Part shown: positions 37,386 through 46,764 of the stretch, piece after piece | Layout of the letters: each line of letters starts with the position of its first letter | How positions within the stretch are numbered: position 1 is the stretch's first letter | Assembly: GCA_029260265.1 (NCBI GenBank) | Contig: JAJDDO010000024.1 | Location: 186,001-250,000 of the forward strand | DNA: 64,000 bases | Reading direction: 5' to 3' | DNA from: Phycisphaerales bacterium | GTDB taxonomy: Bacteria > Planctomycetota > Phycisphaerae > Phycisphaerales > UBA1924 | Position numbers and translations under genes: made by a program | The notes under the pieces: model-generated | Seen by the model: the letters and a program-made list of their open reading frames with translations, nothing else | Told to the model about the DNA's origin: nothing | Database searches by the model: none

Positions 37386-37632
37386 CTTATGGTCCTGAAG
37401 GACACAATGGCAATATCGAACTCGCGCCCAAGCCCAGGCCGTTGGTTGTCGATGCATGGGAGGGCGATCCATGTGATGTCCATCAGCCGCTGGTGCTGGC
37501 TCAGAGTAGGACGGCATCATCGCGTCCCTCACATGATGCCCATCGATGTTGAATAATCTTGTGGTTAGTCCGGTCGCGATTTGATTGCTTCAAAGCTGAA
37601 GAGTTCTCCGCTGACGGATTCTGCATACTGAA

Positions 37633-39196
37633 CGGGGGGCGATCCAAGATATGTCAAACAGTCTCTCGTGCCGCTTCTCAGTGATGCGGCTTCAGTCCCC
37701 TGAAGTGGCGTTGGATGTCAAACTGGGTCGAGATCGGGCGAATTCGCTCATCCTGATGCCCCACCGCGGTGGGCCAGGAGATTGTGGTGGGTCTTGGGAG
37801 TCAATTTGGGTGTCCTTTTTGTCCACCAATTCCACTCCAAAAGATCGTCTAAGCACTTCATGGCACATATCTTACCAGATTCCGGATGTGCATACCCGGA
37901 CATCTGGAGATCTAGAATGAAACAGCATGAACGATCCGTCTGGGATCTCGTCGAATCGGTCTCTATCCTCTTTATGCGCAGCTATCTTGCTGCCCGAGCC
38001 CGGGCATTCGAGCACCCCATGCACGTGGTGCGATTGCTTGCCCAGCGGGATCACGCCCATTCAGATTGTGTGCTCCTGGAACGCGAACTCGCTATCTACC
38101 GCTCCCAGCGCCAACGCAAGCCCGCCAAACACCGCCCCCACTACGCGCCGCAGGAACGGGCCGAGATCCTTCAGTTGATGAGACTACGAGGATGGTCATG
38201 CAAAGAAGCCGCTGCTCGCTTCATAGTCCACCCCAACACAATTCGGAACTGGAAGCGGGCGCTGCGGTACAAACTCAGAGCGGATCAGGTTGTCGGTGCA
38301 CCGCCCTGGAACAAGTTGCACGGAGGCGTGCGATGGCTGGTGCACGAGATGCGTCAGCTGTGCCCCGAGCGAGATTTCGGAACGCGCACCATCGCCAGAT
38401 ACATCATGCGATCCGGAATCCAGATCAGCAGGGCTTCAGTGCGCCGGATCCTCGAAGAAGAGCGATCACCAAATCCATACCACGGAACGCTATCAAACCG
38501 GACGAACAGGACTGCACCCGCACACCTGATTCACCCTCGTAGTCCTCATCATGTGTGGCACCTGGATATCACCTCAATACGAGTGTTGTGGCTGAAGCTC
38601 GAAGTTGCTGCCATTATCGATGGGTGTTGCAGGAAGATTGTCGGGATCAGGGCCTTTGCGAAACGACCGACAACCGCTGACATAGTCAGGCTTATCGATG
38701 ACTCGATCTGCTCGAACACCAAACCGCGGTTCATCATCACCGATCGCGGCTCGCAGTTTCAACGAGCATTTCACTCAGCACTGATCCAGCGAGGGATCAC
38801 ACAAGCCCGATGCCCGGCGCGTGTCTGGCAGTTCAACGCCAAGGTCGAACGGCTGTTCTGGAGTCTAAAAAGATGGTGGCGGGTATCACTCGTCCCGCCC
38901 AACCTGTCAACGATCCAGAAGCGGCTGGAAGACTTTGCTACATGGCACAATCTTTACCGGCCACATGCATCACTTGGTACAATGACGCCGAGTGAAGCGG
39001 AGCTCGGGCTTCGTAAACAAGAGCCAATACGCTATACGGAAGGAGGTGAACTCGAACCCAGGATCACGATCAAGCGACAGCATGTCGGCGATGATCCGCG
39101 ATTACTCTATCCGGTGATCAAGGTGAGGCCGAAACATCACTTTGCGGCGTGATATTCGCCGTATGGGCGGGTATCACAATCTGCTGGCCCCCCGCT
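37633..39196 (+). mobile_element. IS copy A (DDE integrase family)
   Basis: Inner left repeat GCGGTGGGCCAGGAGATTGTGG (37766-) and right end CACAATCTGCTGGCCCCCCGC (to 39195) are inverted; an additional outer CGGGGGGC repeat at 37633 is shared with copy B. Confidence 0.85.
37917..39152 (+). CDS. IS transposase, HTH + integrase core (DDE)
   Basis: MKQHERSVWDLVESV; GWSCKEAAARFIVHPNTIRNWKRAL; WHLDITSIRVLW (D), ITDRGSQFQRAF (D), FNAKVERLFWSLKRWW (E); ORF track start 37782. Confidence 0.9.
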   Translation: MKQHERSVWDLVESVSILFMRSYLAARARAFEHPMHVVRLLAQRDHAHSDCVLLERELAIYRSQRQRKPAKHRPHYAPQERAEILQLMRLRGWSCKEAAARFIVHPNTIRNWKRALRYKLRADQVVGAPPWNKLHGGVRWLVHEMRQLCPERDFGTRTIARYIMRSGIQISRASVRRILEEERSPNPYHGTLSNRTNRTAPAHLIHPRSPHHVWHLDITSIRVLWLKLEVAAIIDGCCRKIVGIRAFAKRPTTADIVRLIDDSICSNTKPRFIITDRGSQFQRAFHSALIQRGITQARCPARVWQFNAKVERLFWSLKRWWRVSLVPPNLSTIQKRLEDFATWHNLYRPHASLGTMTPSEAELGLRKQEPIRYTEGGELEPRITIKRQHVGDDPRLLYPVIKVRPKHHFAA

Positions 39197-39248
39197 GTGA
39201 GTGCAATTTTTTGCTAAGTCAGTTTTTGAAAGCTGTAAAGGAATGCTC

Positions 39249-39806: not shown

Positions 39807-40089
39807 CCGGGTTCGGCGAGAGCAGTGGGGGGTAAGGAAAGACCGCCCATGTAGTGTGTACAAAATAATCGATGAAGAAGAGCTGGTTTGCCACTTTGAA
39901 TTCAGAGGAATCAATTTGCTTGGTGTGCAAAAACTCTATCCGCGCCGATTGGGGGGGTGCTTCGGCGGCGTTCGATCGGCAGATGCACATCGAGCTACAC
40001 AACGGATAGTGAATCGTCCGGCATGATATCAGATCGGACGTACGAAAACCATTCGCGATCATGACCTGCCCCCATTGTTTGTACCACAA

Positions 40090-41651
40090 CGGGGGGCGAT
40101 CCAAGATATGTCAAACAGTCTCTCGTTCCGCTCTGATCAGAGCGGCCTTACTCCCCTATATCGGCGGTGGATGTCAAACTGGGTCGAGATGAGGCAGGAT
40201 CGCCCCTCCCGAGGCCCCACCGCGGTGGGCCAGGAGATTGTGGTGGGTCTTGGGAGTCAGTTTGGGTGTCCTTTTTGTCCACCGATTCCTCCCCGTGTTA
40301 GCGCCTAACTGCCTCATTGCACATATCTTACCAGAATCCGGCTGTGCATACCCGGACATCTGGAGATCTGGAATGAAGCAGCATGAACGGTCCGTCTGGG
40401 ATCTTGTCGAATCGGTCTCCATCCTCTTTATGCGCGGGTACCTCGCCGCCCGAGCGCGGGCTTTCGAGCACCCCATGCCCATGGTGCGACTGCTTACCCA
40501 GCGGGATCACGCCCATTCGGATGCTGTGCTGCTCGAGCGTGAGCTCGCGATCTACCGCTCCCAGCGCCAACGCAAGCCGGCGAAGCAACGCCCCCACTAC
40601 GCACCGCAGGAGCGAGCCGAGATTCTTCAGTTGATGAGACTGCGAGGATGGTCATGCAAAGAAGCCGCAGCCCGTTTCATCGTCCACCCCAATACGGTCC
40701 GCAACTGGAAACGAGCGTTGCGGGACAAACTCAGAGCGGATCAGATTGTCGGTGTACCGCCATGGAACAGACTCCACGGGGGCGTGCGATGGCTGGTGCA
40801 CGAGATGCGTCAGCTGTGCCCCGAGCGAGATTTCGGAACGCGCACCATCGCCAGATACATCATGCGTTCAGGGATCCAGATCAGCAGAGCATCTGTGCGC
40901 AGGATCCTCGAAGAAGATCGATCACCACATCCATTCCACGGAACGCAATCAAACCGGACGAACAGGACTGCACCCGCAGACATGATGCGGCCTCGGAAGC
41001 CCAACCATGTGTGGCACCTGGATATCACCTCGATGCGTGTGTTGTGGCTGAAGCTCGAAGTTGCTGCCATTATCGATGGTTGCAGCAGGAAGATTGTCGG
41101 GATCAGGGCATTCGCCAAACGACCGACGACCGAAGACATGGTCATGCTGATTGAGAGCTCAATTAGAACAAACTCTGTACCACGGTTTATCGTCACGGAT
41201 CGAGGCTCACAGTTTCAGCGAATGTTTCATACCGCCATGATGCAACGAGGGATCACGCATGCACGCGGACCGGCTCGCGTGTGGCAGTTCAACGCCAAGG
41301 TCGAACGGCTCTTCTGGAGCCTGAAGAGATGGTGGCGGGTATCACTCGTACCACCCAACCTCACCTCGATTCAGAAACGACTGGAGGGCTACGCGATCTG
41401 GCACAATCTCTACCGCCCGCACGCATCTCTTGGTATGCTGACACCATGCGAGGCTGAGCTCGGATTGCGTCGGCCGGAACCAATACGCTACACGGAAGGA
41501 GGTGAACTCGAGCCCAAGATCACGATCAGACGATATCATGTCGGTGACGATGCGCGATTACTCTATCCGGTGATCAAGGTGAGGCCGGAGAGATGTTTTG
41601 CGGCGTGATATTCACCATATGGGTTGGTGCCACAGCCTGCTGACCCTCCGC
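40090..41651 (+). mobile_element. IS copy B (DDE integrase family)
   Basis: Left CGGGGGGC / GCGGTGGGCCAGGAGATTGTGG (40222-) and right CACAGCCTGCTGACCCTCCGC (to 41651); 18-bp palindrome CCGCTCTGATCAGAGCGG at 40128-40145. Confidence 0.85.
40373..41608 (+). CDS. IS transposase, HTH + integrase core (DDE)
   Basis: 456-aa ORF from 40238 closely matches copy A; WHLDITSMRVLW, VTDRGSQFQRMF, FNAKVERLFWSLKRWW. Confidence 0.9.
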   Translation: MKQHERSVWDLVESVSILFMRGYLAARARAFEHPMPMVRLLTQRDHAHSDAVLLERELAIYRSQRQRKPAKQRPHYAPQERAEILQLMRLRGWSCKEAAARFIVHPNTVRNWKRALRDKLRADQIVGVPPWNRLHGGVRWLVHEMRQLCPERDFGTRTIARYIMRSGIQISRASVRRILEEDRSPHPFHGTQSNRTNRTAPADMMRPRKPNHVWHLDITSMRVLWLKLEVAAIIDGCSRKIVGIRAFAKRPTTEDMVMLIESSIRTNSVPRFIVTDRGSQFQRMFHTAMMQRGITHARGPARVWQFNAKVERLFWSLKRWWRVSLVPPNLTSIQKRLEGYAIWHNLYRPHASLGMLTPCEAELGLRRPEPIRYTEGGELEPKITIRRYHVGDDARLLYPVIKVRPERCFAA

Positions 41652-41679
41652 TGTAAGCACTTTCCAGAAAAATTAACAA

Positions 41680-42360
41680 ATGCCAGATGACCCTGCCCAC
41701 CGTGATCATGACTTCCACATCAACCCAGAGGTTGTGCCGGGGTTATTCGATCGTATGGCATATGGACTGGATCTGATGAACATTTTGGACCGGTCGGCAT
41801 ACGACCGGCTCGTAGAGCTCGGGGCGTTCTCGATGGCCAAATCAGTTCTCGAGATCGGGAGTGGCACGGGCGGATTCGCAGATCGACTGCTCAAGCGGGA
41901 ATTGCAAGGCGATACATTGTATCAACTGACAGAAGTGAGCCCGGTGCTTACGAAACGATTAGAACGGCGCTTCGCGGGGTTCAGCAACCAAGTCCGTGTG
42001 CAGTGTGTTGAAATGAATAACCCGTACCCGTTTACAGGTCCGTTCGATCGGATCGTGTCCGCTTATGTCCATGACACTATGCCACTTGAAGATCTGCAAT
42101 GGCATATGGATGAGCTGCACAGGCTGCTGGCACCAGGGGGTAAATTGTGCATGGCGATAACGGGAGGAGGGACCAGCAAACGAGCACGCCTAATGATGAG
42201 GGCATGGCACGGATTGTTCTCTCTAAACCCGAGCCTGGTAGGCGGAAGCCGAGTTGTTGATCTGGTAAAAATGCTCGATTCGAAGAAATGGGAGCAGGTG
42301 GAATCCGAAGATGTAGACGGGCTTGGCTTCGCTAGCCGAGTAATTATTGCTACTAGGTAA
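41680..42360 (+). CDS. Class I SAM-dependent methyltransferase
   Basis: VLEIGSGTGGFADRLL motif I; DRIVSAYVHDTMPLEDLQWHMDELHRLLAPGGKLCMA. Confidence 0.88.
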   Translation: MPDDPAHRDHDFHINPEVVPGLFDRMAYGLDLMNILDRSAYDRLVELGAFSMAKSVLEIGSGTGGFADRLLKRELQGDTLYQLTEVSPVLTKRLERRFAGFSNQVRVQCVEMNNPYPFTGPFDRIVSAYVHDTMPLEDLQWHMDELHRLLAPGGKLCMAITGGGTSKRARLMMRAWHGLFSLNPSLVGGSRVVDLVKMLDSKKWEQVESEDVDGLGFASRVIIATR

Positions 42361-42393
42361 TATAATACCTTTACCGTCTTCTTTCTCCCAGCG

Positions 42394-43299
42394 GTGGCGA
42401 TCATGCTCCACTTTCTGTCTGGGTGCATTTTGACATGTTGCAAGATTGGAGAGACCGTGAACTGGATTTCGATGATCGGTGATTCCGTATTTGGAGTACT
42501 AACAAGGATCTCTGTGCTAGGTGTGCATGGATACCGGCTGTGGATTTCACCAAAACGACGCAAGCGTTGCGCAAGCGGGGTGCTACACGGGTGGGAACAT
42601 TCGTGTAGTACGGTCACACTTGAAGCGCTGCGAGAGGATGGCTTGCGTGGAGCTGCGCCGAAGGTGCGGGCGCAGTTCGCAAAGTGTGCATTGGCGGCGG
42701 AGACAATCGATTCGAAGGATGGCGATGCCAATGCGACTGTGCCGCTTGCAGCGGGGGAAGAAGAAGCATGCTGCGAACTCGATCTGCATGCGGAAACAGC
42801 TCGGAAGATGATTATCGAATTGTTCACAGTTTGGTGTGTAGGCAAGTACCTGATGGCCGGAGCTTTTCATGCGGGGATGCTGGAGGGCTGGATTGAAGGC
42901 TTTTTATACAACCTGCTTGGACCGATGTTCATGGGATCTGCAGCATCAATGCTCTGGCCACTAGTGGTCCTCTCCTTAGTGATGGATTCGTTTGCCGTTT
43001 ACGCCTTGTACAAGCGTGAGGATGCCGCCCCATACCTAGTAGGGAGTTTCGGCTTGTCAGCGTTCGTGATGTTCTTTGACCCGTTCCTTGCGAGCATGGT
43101 GAACCTGGACTGGTTCGGCTCGGCGTGGAATTTGAATGAAATGACAGGGGAAATCGCAGATGCAGGCGCCGGAAAAATCTGGCACAAGGGATTGTTTGGG
43201 ATAATCTGGCCGAAGAAGTTGGCTGTGCTCATAGTCTGGGGGGCGTCATTATTCATGCTCTTGGCTGTCAGCGAGCTCTCGAGATCGTGCGATGACTGA
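42394..43299 (+). CDS. YidD-like domain fused to C-terminal multi-TM region
   Basis: LGVHGYRLWISPKRRKRCASGVLHGWEHSCSTVTLEALREDGLRGAAPKVRAQFAKC resembles YidD (YQxxISPxxxxxCRxxPSCSxYxxEAxxxxGxxxG); then several hydrophobic helices. GTG start in ORF track; true start uncertain. Confidence 0.65.
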   Translation: MAIMLHFLSGCILTCCKIGETVNWISMIGDSVFGVLTRISVLGVHGYRLWISPKRRKRCASGVLHGWEHSCSTVTLEALREDGLRGAAPKVRAQFAKCALAAETIDSKDGDANATVPLAAGEEEACCELDLHAETARKMIIELFTVWCVGKYLMAGAFHAGMLEGWIEGFLYNLLGPMFMGSAASMLWPLVVLSLVMDSFAVYALYKREDAAPYLVGSFGLSAFVMFFDPFLASMVNLDWFGSAWNLNEMTGEIADAGAGKIWHKGLFGIIWPKKLAVLIVWGASLFMLLAVSELSRSCDD

Positions 43300-44977
43300 A
43301 CCTAGCGCGCTGCCGACTCGAGAAGCGGTCCGTAAACTGTCAATTTCCACAGTTGAATCATTCAATCAGTGGCGTTCGGACGCAGAGTCACTGGATCGTG
43401 GTAGGCGAATTGTACTTGATGAAGTCCGATCGATCGCGCGATTCTATGAGCGCCGACAATTCCATAATGCATTCGAGACACTAGTCAAGCCCGGGGGATG
43501 GTCAGGGTATCTGGCATCCGTTTTCCTGTCGTACCGACAGCGGGACGCCATGCTCGGATACTTGAGATTTCAAGAGTGCGCCGGCGAGTTTGAAGGGGAG
43601 CATGATCCATTAGAAAAAGTCAATCAGCTACTAAACACGGACCTTCGGCGGTTAGGGACTCGATCTCTTTCTCTCTTCGGGGTAATGGTGGATACGGGCG
43701 AGGGACGGCGACGGCGAGTTCGACTGCCCATTGACCCATTCGCATGCCATCGGCGGGTGTACACAAGAATTCTCCGGGCAAGACGAACCGGTATTGGGCA
43801 GCGGGCCCGGGTGTTGAACTTTGTCGATCGACATCGGGCGCGATGTGAGCTTGCCCTTTTGAAGTTGGCCTGTCGAGTAATGGTTCGGATGAACTGGATA
43901 CCACTCAAGGGCGAGACCATCGTGGCGGAGCTCGGCGAGGTATTCGGGTGTGCGGAATGGGGTGAAAATGAGAAGCGAAAGTTTAAACACGAAATGGAGA
44001 TGTTCATAGAAGGGGATGCATGGGAGATTCTAGAACATACATCCGAGGACGCATGGTTAAACGGAGGAGCTGGCAAGTTCGTGAAGCTGGCGATCGGGAC
44101 AATGCTGGGTTGCGTAGAAACGAATCAGGCTCGCGGAGATGCGGATGTGGATTCGGTAATCCGAGCTATGAAGACTGTTTTCTACTGGGCTTTGACATAC
44201 CCCCTGGTGGATGATGTGCTTGACCAAGGCGAATCTTCGTTGGCGGATCGGCAATCGCTAGCCCGTACAATGCGTGAGGCACTTTCAGCTGGCGGAGAAG
44301 AGGATGAGCCAACAAACGATGTTCCCCCAATCGCGATAGCCATGCGTCGCCTGCTATCGATCCCCGGGATAAATCGAAAGCGCGTATCAACAGCGATTCT
44401 CGCAGTACTCGAAGCCCATGTGGACGGGGCGACGCCGCGGCTTGAATCGGTAATTGAGGAAGGGGATCTGTATGTATGGCTATCGCTGGAGAAATCGCTA
44501 TTGGTGCGAGTGGCTACATCAGAGATCAGCGGGATCCCGGTGCCATGGAAGGATTACCAAGAGATGGCAGGGGTAGCATACTTCAATCAGTTGGGGGATG
44601 ATCTGTGGGATGCAGAGGAGGATCTTCGAGACGGAGCAATCACGCCAGTGACTATGTGGGCTCGTGGACTTCGCCGAGAAAACCCATCACGAATGTATGT
44701 AGATTTCGGAGCATGGCTTTCCGATGAAGCAGGAAACGAGCAGACTACGAGGGGGATCGCACTGGCGATCGTGCACACATTCAGTTTATCTCGCGGGGCA
44801 GGACCATTGACAGATTCGATGCTGGAGATGGAGCTGGAGGGGGCGTTCCCAGCGTCGTTGATGGACGCGGTACCACACATCGATCCGGATTCGATGCTGT
44901 TCGAGTTCGAGCGATTAGCGGTGCGAGAGTACAAGCGATGGGGTACTCGTAAGCGATCGACCGTAGGGCGGGTATAG
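43292..44977 (+). CDS. Class I isoprenoid-synthase-like protein (polyprenyl synthetase fold, putative)
   Basis: Two Asp-rich motifs at expected order: YPLVDDVLDQ (DDxxD) and FNQLGDDLWDAEEDLRDG (second Asp-rich motif); 8-nt overlap with upstream ORF. Confidence 0.65.
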   Translation: MTEPSALPTREAVRKLSISTVESFNQWRSDAESLDRGRRIVLDEVRSIARFYERRQFHNAFETLVKPGGWSGYLASVFLSYRQRDAMLGYLRFQECAGEFEGEHDPLEKVNQLLNTDLRRLGTRSLSLFGVMVDTGEGRRRRVRLPIDPFACHRRVYTRILRARRTGIGQRARVLNFVDRHRARCELALLKLACRVMVRMNWIPLKGETIVAELGEVFGCAEWGENEKRKFKHEMEMFIEGDAWEILEHTSEDAWLNGGAGKFVKLAIGTMLGCVETNQARGDADVDSVIRAMKTVFYWALTYPLVDDVLDQGESSLADRQSLARTMREALSAGGEEDEPTNDVPPIAIAMRRLLSIPGINRKRVSTAILAVLEAHVDGATPRLESVIEEGDLYVWLSLEKSLLVRVATSEISGIPVPWKDYQEMAGVAYFNQLGDDLWDAEEDLRDGAITPVTMWARGLRRENPSRMYVDFGAWLSDEAGNEQTTRGIALAIVHTFSLSRGAGPLTDSMLEMELEGAFPASLMDAVPHIDPDSMLFEFERLAVREYKRWGTRKRSTVGRV

Positions 44978-45147: not shown

Positions 45148-46764
45148 TTACCAACGACGCCGATCGATTATTGCACGTGAATGAAAGCGAACTGAAATCA
45201 GTGATACCGGAGCTGCTGCGACACGCTCAACCTCTTCGATGAATTGGAGACTATCTTTTGTTAACTGCTCAACTCGATTTGCCTTCCGATTCTCTATGGA
45301 TAGATAATCAGCAAATGTCAATGCGATGTCAGTTGGTGCATTGAGCGACGCCGACATACGCAATTGTGCCCAATCAAACTCCCCAACACGCCGCTTCCGC
45401 TTAGTCGTAGATGTCTTTTCAACTTTTTGAAGCTCACTAATCGGTACTCCGGACCGATCAGCGACATCTACCCAATTAATCTCTCGCGACATGGGTCCTG
45501 ATGTGCTGCCCTTGGGGCTCTCCACCCGTATGGGATACGTCCTGCAAACCATCAACACTTTTCGAACCCTGCTCGGCGAAATCCCCGCGTCAGCGAGGCA
45601 CCCTGCAACTGTCGTATCTCTCGAAGTGACGTAGGGGTACTCACCATGATACAGGCTCAAACTCGTACCTTGGGTCCCCTCTAGCATGACTGCCCGATTA
45701 TTGCCGAACGCATCATCAAGAACTTCACATGCCGGTCGCACGAACGGCTTGAGTTCCTTGATGTTTGCCGCAATCGTGAGCCTATTGATCGCCTTATCAC
45801 GATCTAAGATTCTACGAGCTGTGGCCGCACCTACCCCTTGGCCCGTAGAGCCCATTGCATCTGTAAATCTTGACTCACTCGCGATGTCATCATCACTGAT
45901 TACCATCGCGTGTGGATCGATCGTTAATCGATCATAATCTACATTACAATCTGCGATCTCCTTCATCAGTGATTCAACGCGAATAACCGCCCCTGCACCA
46001 AGCACGAGCATTGCGTTCGGATTCCGTCGAGTGCCGCTGGGTAAGTGGTGGAAAGTGTATGGATCCGGATGTTCCCAGACAGTGTGCCCTGCGTTCGGGC
46101 CGCCTACACGAACAAGGAGATCGTATTCTGAGGAAAGATGCGCCGCGACCTGCCCCTTCCCTTCGCTTCCATACTGACCTCCAACTATCACATCGACCGT
46201 GCGAGAATACGTTCTTCCGAATACACCAATATGACTCGCTGCACGTAGTAGAACATCATCTTCTGTGCAACGTTCGGTTGAAATTACCACATCCGCAAGC
46301 TGGCCAAGCTCCGCGACCTGCCGTTCAGTCTTGTTCTCCAGCAACTTTGAATAGTCATCAAGCTCTTTGATACTCGCGTCACGATCCTTATACCGCTTAG
46401 ACAGTTCGGATTCAGGTGCCTCCAGATGGATGTGGATAACACCGTTCCCATACCCCTCGCGTATTGCCTCAATTTGCCCTTGAATCCGAACGGCGTCAAG
46501 CACCACAAGCTTTTCACCATCGGCATTGAGTTCATCCAATCTTTTTCCAAGCGCATCCCGTACCCATGCCCCCTTGGTCTTTCGATCAAGCTTCTCGCCG
46601 GCGGCCTGCAATGCAACCCGTTCTAAGGGGATTGTGCTGTCCAGAGCACTCAAACATTCGCGTGTCTTAATGTGAAACGCCCCATACTGCTTTGAGAGCA
46701 TCACCGCTAAGGTGGTTTTACCTGTACATACCTGACCAGATAACAAGACAATTCTTCGACGCAC
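45148..46764 (-). CDS. P-loop nucleotide-kinase-like domain fused to PurA/PurZ-like adenylosuccinate synthetase
   Basis: N-term RRIVLLSGQVCTGKTTLAVMLSKQYGAFHIKTRE (Walker A); C-term VIVGGQYGSEGKGQVAAHL, VGGPNAGHTVWEH, MGSTGQGVGAATARRI, MLEGTQGTSLSLYHGEYPYVTSRDTTVAG (adenylosuccinate synthetase family). Confidence 0.88.
   Translation of the reverse strand: MRRRIVLLSGQVCTGKTTLAVMLSKQYGAFHIKTRECLSALDSTIPLERVALQAAGEKLDRKTKGAWVRDALGKRLDELNADGEKLVVLDAVRIQGQIEAIREGYGNGVIHIHLEAPESELSKRYKDRDASIKELDDYSKLLENKTERQVAELGQLADVVISTERCTEDDVLLRAASHIGVFGRTYSRTVDVIVGGQYGSEGKGQVAAHLSSEYDLLVRVGGPNAGHTVWEHPDPYTFHHLPSGTRRNPNAMLVLGAGAVIRVESLMKEIADCNVDYDRLTIDPHAMVISDDDIASESRFTDAMGSTGQGVGAATARRILDRDKAINRLTIAANIKELKPFVRPACEVLDDAFGNNRAVMLEGTQGTSLSLYHGEYPYVTSRDTTVAGCLADAGISPSRVRKVLMVCRTYPIRVESPKGSTSGPMSREINWVDVADRSGVPISELQKVEKTSTTKRKRRVGEFDWAQLRMSASLNAPTDIALTFADYLSIENRKANRVEQLTKDSLQFIEEVERVAAAPVSLISVRFHSRAIIDRRRW

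Follow-up and report, generated by a model that had tools for sequence, protein, structure and literature searches.

The third gene of a three-gene set in this IS-rich planctomycete region encodes a 561-aa protein that, judged from distant sequence kinship and a modelled fold, is on balance probably a highly diverged, non-canonical (class-IB-like) terpene synthase or a closely related prenyl-diphosphate enzyme. The class I assignment follows from profile homology to a domain that occurs fused to farnesyl-diphosphate (FPP)-synthase-type domains, together with matches of the predicted all-alpha fold; it agrees with a sequence-only reading of this DNA, which had called the protein class I isoprenoid-synthase-like with both Asp-rich motifs. 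The fold evidence is consistent with this assignment and stops short of proof. The gene set itself is real and is unique in the data searched; a joint function of its members is putative. If active, the 561-aa protein would add to a bacterial class I family, missed by curated models, a third and very divergent lineage, and its link to an accessory YidD would offer a first way into the function of such YidD proteins.

The gene set and its surroundings

The genome comprises 2.93 Mb in 41 contigs, and the window (the whole stretch of 64,000 nt analysed here) carries the set as three consecutive genes with open reading frames (Table 1), an arrangement already described in the sequence-only reading and borne out by the list of open reading frames. 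The YidD-membrane and 561-aa genes share exactly 8 nt (43292-43299, ATGACTGA), in line with the overlap claimed there; same-strand overlaps of 8 nt are typical of co-translated genes. At the 5' side, the set is bounded by the right end of an insertion sequence that we take, from reading its transposase, to be IS481-like. The methyltransferase gene begins 23 nt downstream of this end, so upstream operon members, if there were any, may have been lost. The three IS481-like copies of the region form direct repeats. The methyltransferase gene overlaps at its end with a weak terminator-like stem, such stems occurring here at near chance number. Rfam and tRNA searches found no feature. The kinase-synthetase fusion downstream scored 273 bits against NCBIfam PRK04293 and 213 bits against PurZ, both under the cut-off.

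Table 1 Coordinates of the gene set and neighbouring features in the window
Feature	Position	Strand	Length	Remarks
IS481-like copy	37631-39201
IS481-like insertion sequence	40088-41657	+		transposase ORF 40238-41608
Class I SAM-dependent methyltransferase gene	41680-42360	+	226 aa	Pfam Methyltransf_25
YidD-membrane gene, longest ORF	42394-43299	+	301 aa
YidD-membrane gene, likelier start GTG 42457	42457-43299	+	280 aa
Isoprenoid/terpene-synthase-like gene	43292-44977	+	561 aa	probably non-canonical class I
P-loop kinase domain fused to PurA/PurZ-like adenylosuccinate synthetase	45148-46764			beside DarTG-like pair
Divergent DarTG-like pair	46775-48775			M78 peptidase + macro/DarG-like fusion, opposite DUF7002 (weakly DarT-like) gene
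Truncated type I restriction HsdR	49663-51562			IS-end-like remnants 51150-51194, 51502-51562
IS481-like copy	53609-54493
Type III restriction enzyme + methyltransferase-like gene running off window end	60130-63999			PADLOC E 1e-223

By its sequence matches, the 226-aa protein, read from the letters as a SAM methyltransferase, is a generic class I SAM-dependent methyltransferase: Methyltransf_25 scored 42.2 bits against a cut-off of 27, and the best NCBIfam match, CpaM, reached 37 bits, far under its cut-off of 180. An identity as mad2 (PADLOC, 46.7 bits) was set aside; the match covers 136 of 492 positions and was read as a generic SAM domain. Bacteria are known to C-methylate prenyl diphosphates before cyclisation (PMC13022886), so the methyltransferase of the set could act likewise, and methylation of a membrane terpenoid is a possible, putative role for this generic enzyme.

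The YidD domain of the second gene is, on sequence criteria, real but divergent, with TIGR00278 scores of 38.2 bits (E = 9e-10) in the NCBIfam search, against a cut-off of 40, and 41.5 bits in a genome-wide search. Hydropathy placed about four hydrophobic segments C-terminal to it, and these two results together uphold the proposed fusion of a YidD-like domain to membrane helices. The GTG at 42457 is the likelier start because GGAGAG stands closely before it. The genome holds a canonical YidD on another contig, beside an ORF that is presumably rnpA, as read from its sequence; the YidD of the set is a second, accessory YidD fused to a membrane domain. It has an accessory-type C...HG..SCS loop, longer than the canonical one and common to accessory YidDs of other planctomycetes and of Vibrio/Loktanella plasmids; none of the accessory YidD matches in planctomycetes and plasmids reaches into the C-terminal membrane domain. 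An accessory YidD subfamily with the longer inter-Cys loop and Cys-rich tails, sometimes plasmid-borne, was seen at L012:8167-8544, L171:6001-6354, and L172:6010-6414; we know of no role assigned to it.

Conserved linkage of the three genes, to which the sequence-only reading had tied its proposal, was not found in neighbourhood searches of planctomycetes, relatives' loci, plasmids, and phages, collections that were partly sampled, and no second locus with any two of the genes appeared in the data searched. The 561-aa protein, its profile, and the YidD protein, used as queries against 395 planctomycete genomes, gave no second linkage, nor did the profile against 189 genomes of each of two other phyla; the inspected loci of relatives, plasmids, and phages showed no second YidD or methyltransferase linkage. 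The YidD query found nothing in 27 genomes holding class I-like relatives, a search run without a positive control, and no class I gene stood near the YidD relatives of planctomycetes or of Vibrio/Loktanella plasmids. Scans of viral contigs yielded no match to the profile, to the YidD protein, or to the methyltransferase.

GC3 is 0.57 in the methyltransferase gene, 0.60 in the YidD-membrane gene, and 0.55 in the 561-aa gene, compared with 0.64-0.67 in upstream chromosomal genes, and none of the 394 other planctomycete genomes sampled gave a match to the 561-aa protein. Together with the IS boundary, this rarity in the phylum and the reduced GC3 point to a single lateral event, and the gene set was probably acquired laterally. 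No empty site can be defined, since the region's flanks lack synteny within the genus.

Kinship and predicted fold of the 561-aa protein

The first Asp-rich motif of the 561-aa protein, DDVLD, occupies residues 307-311 and the second, GDDLWDAEEDLRDG, residues 435-448, with DDLWDAEED at 436-444. Both lie in a core of approximately residues 233-523 and align with the motifs of relatives, and a predicted metal- and diphosphate-site pattern is kept (D307, D308, D311, K401, D436, D437, D440, E443, D444). The protein had no sequence match in Pfam, NCBIfam, or PDB, and no curated terpene-synthase or prenyltransferase model recognised it. Single-sequence searches of 395 planctomycetes, plasmids, and phages gave no relatives, peptide-pattern scans of genome and viral contig collections gave none either, and a profile search of PDB sequences returned unrelated helical proteins only. 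One weak match in a genome of the same genus (L002, E = 0.006) was dropped, as it falls in an unrelated envelope-chaperone-like protein.

Relatives were obtained with the second motif written as a degenerate DNA pattern (Q-hydrophobic-x-D-D-x2-D-x2-E-D-x3-G), which matched only this gene in 299 genomes of the class and gave at least 120 loci in a species-level genome collection. Within a small set of these pattern loci, phmmer placed Bacillus/Paenibacillus proteins of ~800 aa first, by their N-terminal domain (6.5e-12). Such proteins, mostly from these two genera, form a first group of relatives: their N-terminal part matches the 561-aa protein, and they end in a complete polyprenyl_synt (FPP-synthase-type) domain (Pfam E = 2.8e-49 in L072), both C-terminal Asp-rich motifs being present in eight full-length members. 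The second group consists of ~415-aa orphans in Bacteroidota, Acidobacteriota, and Clostridia.

A profile of 12 first-group relatives, built with the 561-aa protein left out, matched that protein with 47.7 bits (E = 5.7e-13 at Z = 10000), and still with 21.9 bits (E = 3.8e-5) when the 16-residue scan region was masked, the best of 500 shuffles reaching 1.7 bits. As the motif-masked score exceeds all shuffles, the homology goes beyond chance, and hhalign gave 97.5% probability over residues 247-489. Kinship to the second group is weaker (21.8 bits; 6.8 with the motif masked, not significant alone; hhalign 95.5%). In the core alignment, K401, D307, D311, Y303, and T451 are invariant and P304 nearly so. 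The invariance of Q433, D436, D437, D440, E443, D444, and G448 was preset by the search pattern; since relatives were picked by the second motif, its conservation is no evidence, and D307, D311, K401, Y303, P304, and T451 are the independent positions. Identity to the relatives is 15-21%, and in the tree the protein stands alone, in an unsure position, on a branch of 5.9 changes per site, a length at which activity may have changed or been lost.

AlphaFold2, run on the alignment, predicted a protein that is helical throughout and whose core (residues 233-523) reached pLDDT 73.6 and pTM 0.71, the N-terminal ~240 residues being poorly modelled. When the core was compared with PDB by Foldseek, all 50 among the matches listed were class I isoprenoid enzymes, terpene synthases dominant, with E values of 0.003-0.04 (best 0.0029), TM of ~0.5, and large rmsd. 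The full-length model had the class IB terpene synthase 6loo as its best PDB match and also matched 5yo8. The all-alpha isoprenoid fold anticipated by the sequence-only reading is therefore what model and overlay point to, at E values of 0.003 or worse. Class IB enzymes carry the catalytic motifs DYLDNLxD and DY(F,L,W)IDxxED (PMC11234867). DDLWDAEED has the D-x3-D-x2-E-D spacing of the second, and the third Asp of the first is absent (S315). The NSE/DTE second motif of canonical class I cyclases (N-D-x2-S-x3-E) was not found in the 561-aa protein, which has D-x3-D-x2-E-D instead.

Several other architectures came to light among the loci. Bacterial ~790-840-aa fusions of a class I-like domain followed by a complete FPP-synthase-type domain with both Asp-rich motifs were seen at L072:768-3155 and at L057, L068, L076, L086, L096, L144, and L106, and partial ones at L043, L084, L104, L121, and L161. 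By architecture, these fusions can be likened to fungal chimeric terpene synthases, which PMC8307374 describes as fungal only; a limited literature search found no report of the bacterial ones. L079:5585-7666 shows an apparent fusion of a class I-like domain followed by a squalene-cyclase-like domain (NCBIfam matches), and in Patescibacteria-type proteins such as L065:4667-6655 a squalene-cyclase-like domain seemingly precedes the class I-like domain (by eye). Most motif matches on viral contigs fell to a phage-encoded metallopeptidase-like protein and were rejected; one, L033:1394-4187, on a contig filed as viral, is a class I-like gene overlapping a sensor histidine kinase gene.

Possible roles of the set

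In a class-IB-like enzyme of this kind, Mg2+ would be held by D307/D308/D311 and D436/D440/E443/D444, and K401 together with Mg2+ would bind the diphosphate group on a prenyl diphosphate supplied by the host. The 561-aa protein would then remove the diphosphate and turn the resulting cation into a hydrophobic terpenoid, both catalysis and substrate being putative. The YidD-membrane protein might position the enzyme, or what it makes, at the membrane, a partnership for which the gene overlap is the one ground, and the methyltransferase, linked to the enzyme by adjacency alone, might decorate the prenyl diphosphate or the product. It seems unlikely that all this amounts to a translationally coupled module, in which the YidD-membrane protein would dock a new-lineage terpene synthase at the membrane or insert it there and hand on its product, perhaps methylated, to the bilayer; such a module, if true, would to our knowledge be the first case of a YidD domain acting in something other than membrane-protein insertion.

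The same residues could serve prenyl transfer rather than cyclisation, in which case a prenyl group would go to a lipid, a protein, or a small molecule located at the membrane. The YidD-membrane protein would then be the acceptor or a platform, and the methyltransferase would cap the product. The fold is common to class I isoprenyl transferases, whose second motif is likewise of the DD..D type, not NSE; UbiA homologues and a membrane-bound prenyltransferase are among the full-model fold matches, and a membrane acceptor would agree with the overlap between the 561-aa gene and that of a membrane protein. We nevertheless consider transfer rather unlikely, given that the core fold matches listed are mostly terpene synthases, that the relatives are fused to prenyl-diphosphate makers, as PMC8190136 has it for chimeric terpene synthases, and that no acceptor is known.

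The genes may also have no common task. A serious possibility for the set, though less likely than not, and compatible with the enzyme assignment, is that unrelated cargo came together by chance on an IS-rich lateral segment, with YidD and methyltransferase as passengers and an enzyme that may be decaying. The lack of a second instance of the arrangement in the data searched would fit this, as would the methyltransferase start so close to the IS end, the IS copies and restriction fragments of the region, the very long branch of the enzyme, and the weak stem at the end of the first gene, near chance number as such stems are; three open frames, intact metal-site residues, and an overlap typical of co-translation argue against it. 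That the set serves in conflict or in defence against phage through a membrane-active lipid, the YidD-membrane protein being its effector or immunity component, appears quite improbable: the DarTG-like pair, truncated HsdR, and type III restriction enzyme nearby are circumstantial, and although the segment looks mobile, such islands hold many passengers, neither the YidD-membrane nor the 561-aa protein had a PADLOC match, the mad2 match of the methyltransferase was read as generic, and the enzyme's relatives occur elsewhere without evident defence context.

Comparison with known systems

Among known enzymes close to the putative terpene synthase are class IB enzymes of the BalTS/YtpB type, which supply its top full-model fold matches (6loo, 5yo8) and with which it shares the spacing of motif 2; it differs in having no Pfam match, in missing the third Asp of motif 1, and in its length of 561 versus ~350 aa. 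We know of no YidD partner for class IB terpene synthases. With the fused Bacillus/Paenibacillus proteins (L072, 796 aa) it shares a homologous N-terminal domain and the same motifs, whereas it has no fused isoprenyl diphosphate synthase, is only 15-21% identical, and sits on its own branch. The likeness to fungal chimeric (PTTS) terpene synthases, by architecture alone, lies in the apparent pairing of class I cyclase and prenyltransferase in the relatives, a fusion absent from the 561-aa protein. The YidD-membrane protein, for its part, differs from YidD (TIGR00278) in its longer inter-Cys loop, its added membrane domain, and its location away from rnpA, and shares with it the ISP...C...SCS...C signature at 38-41.5 bits.
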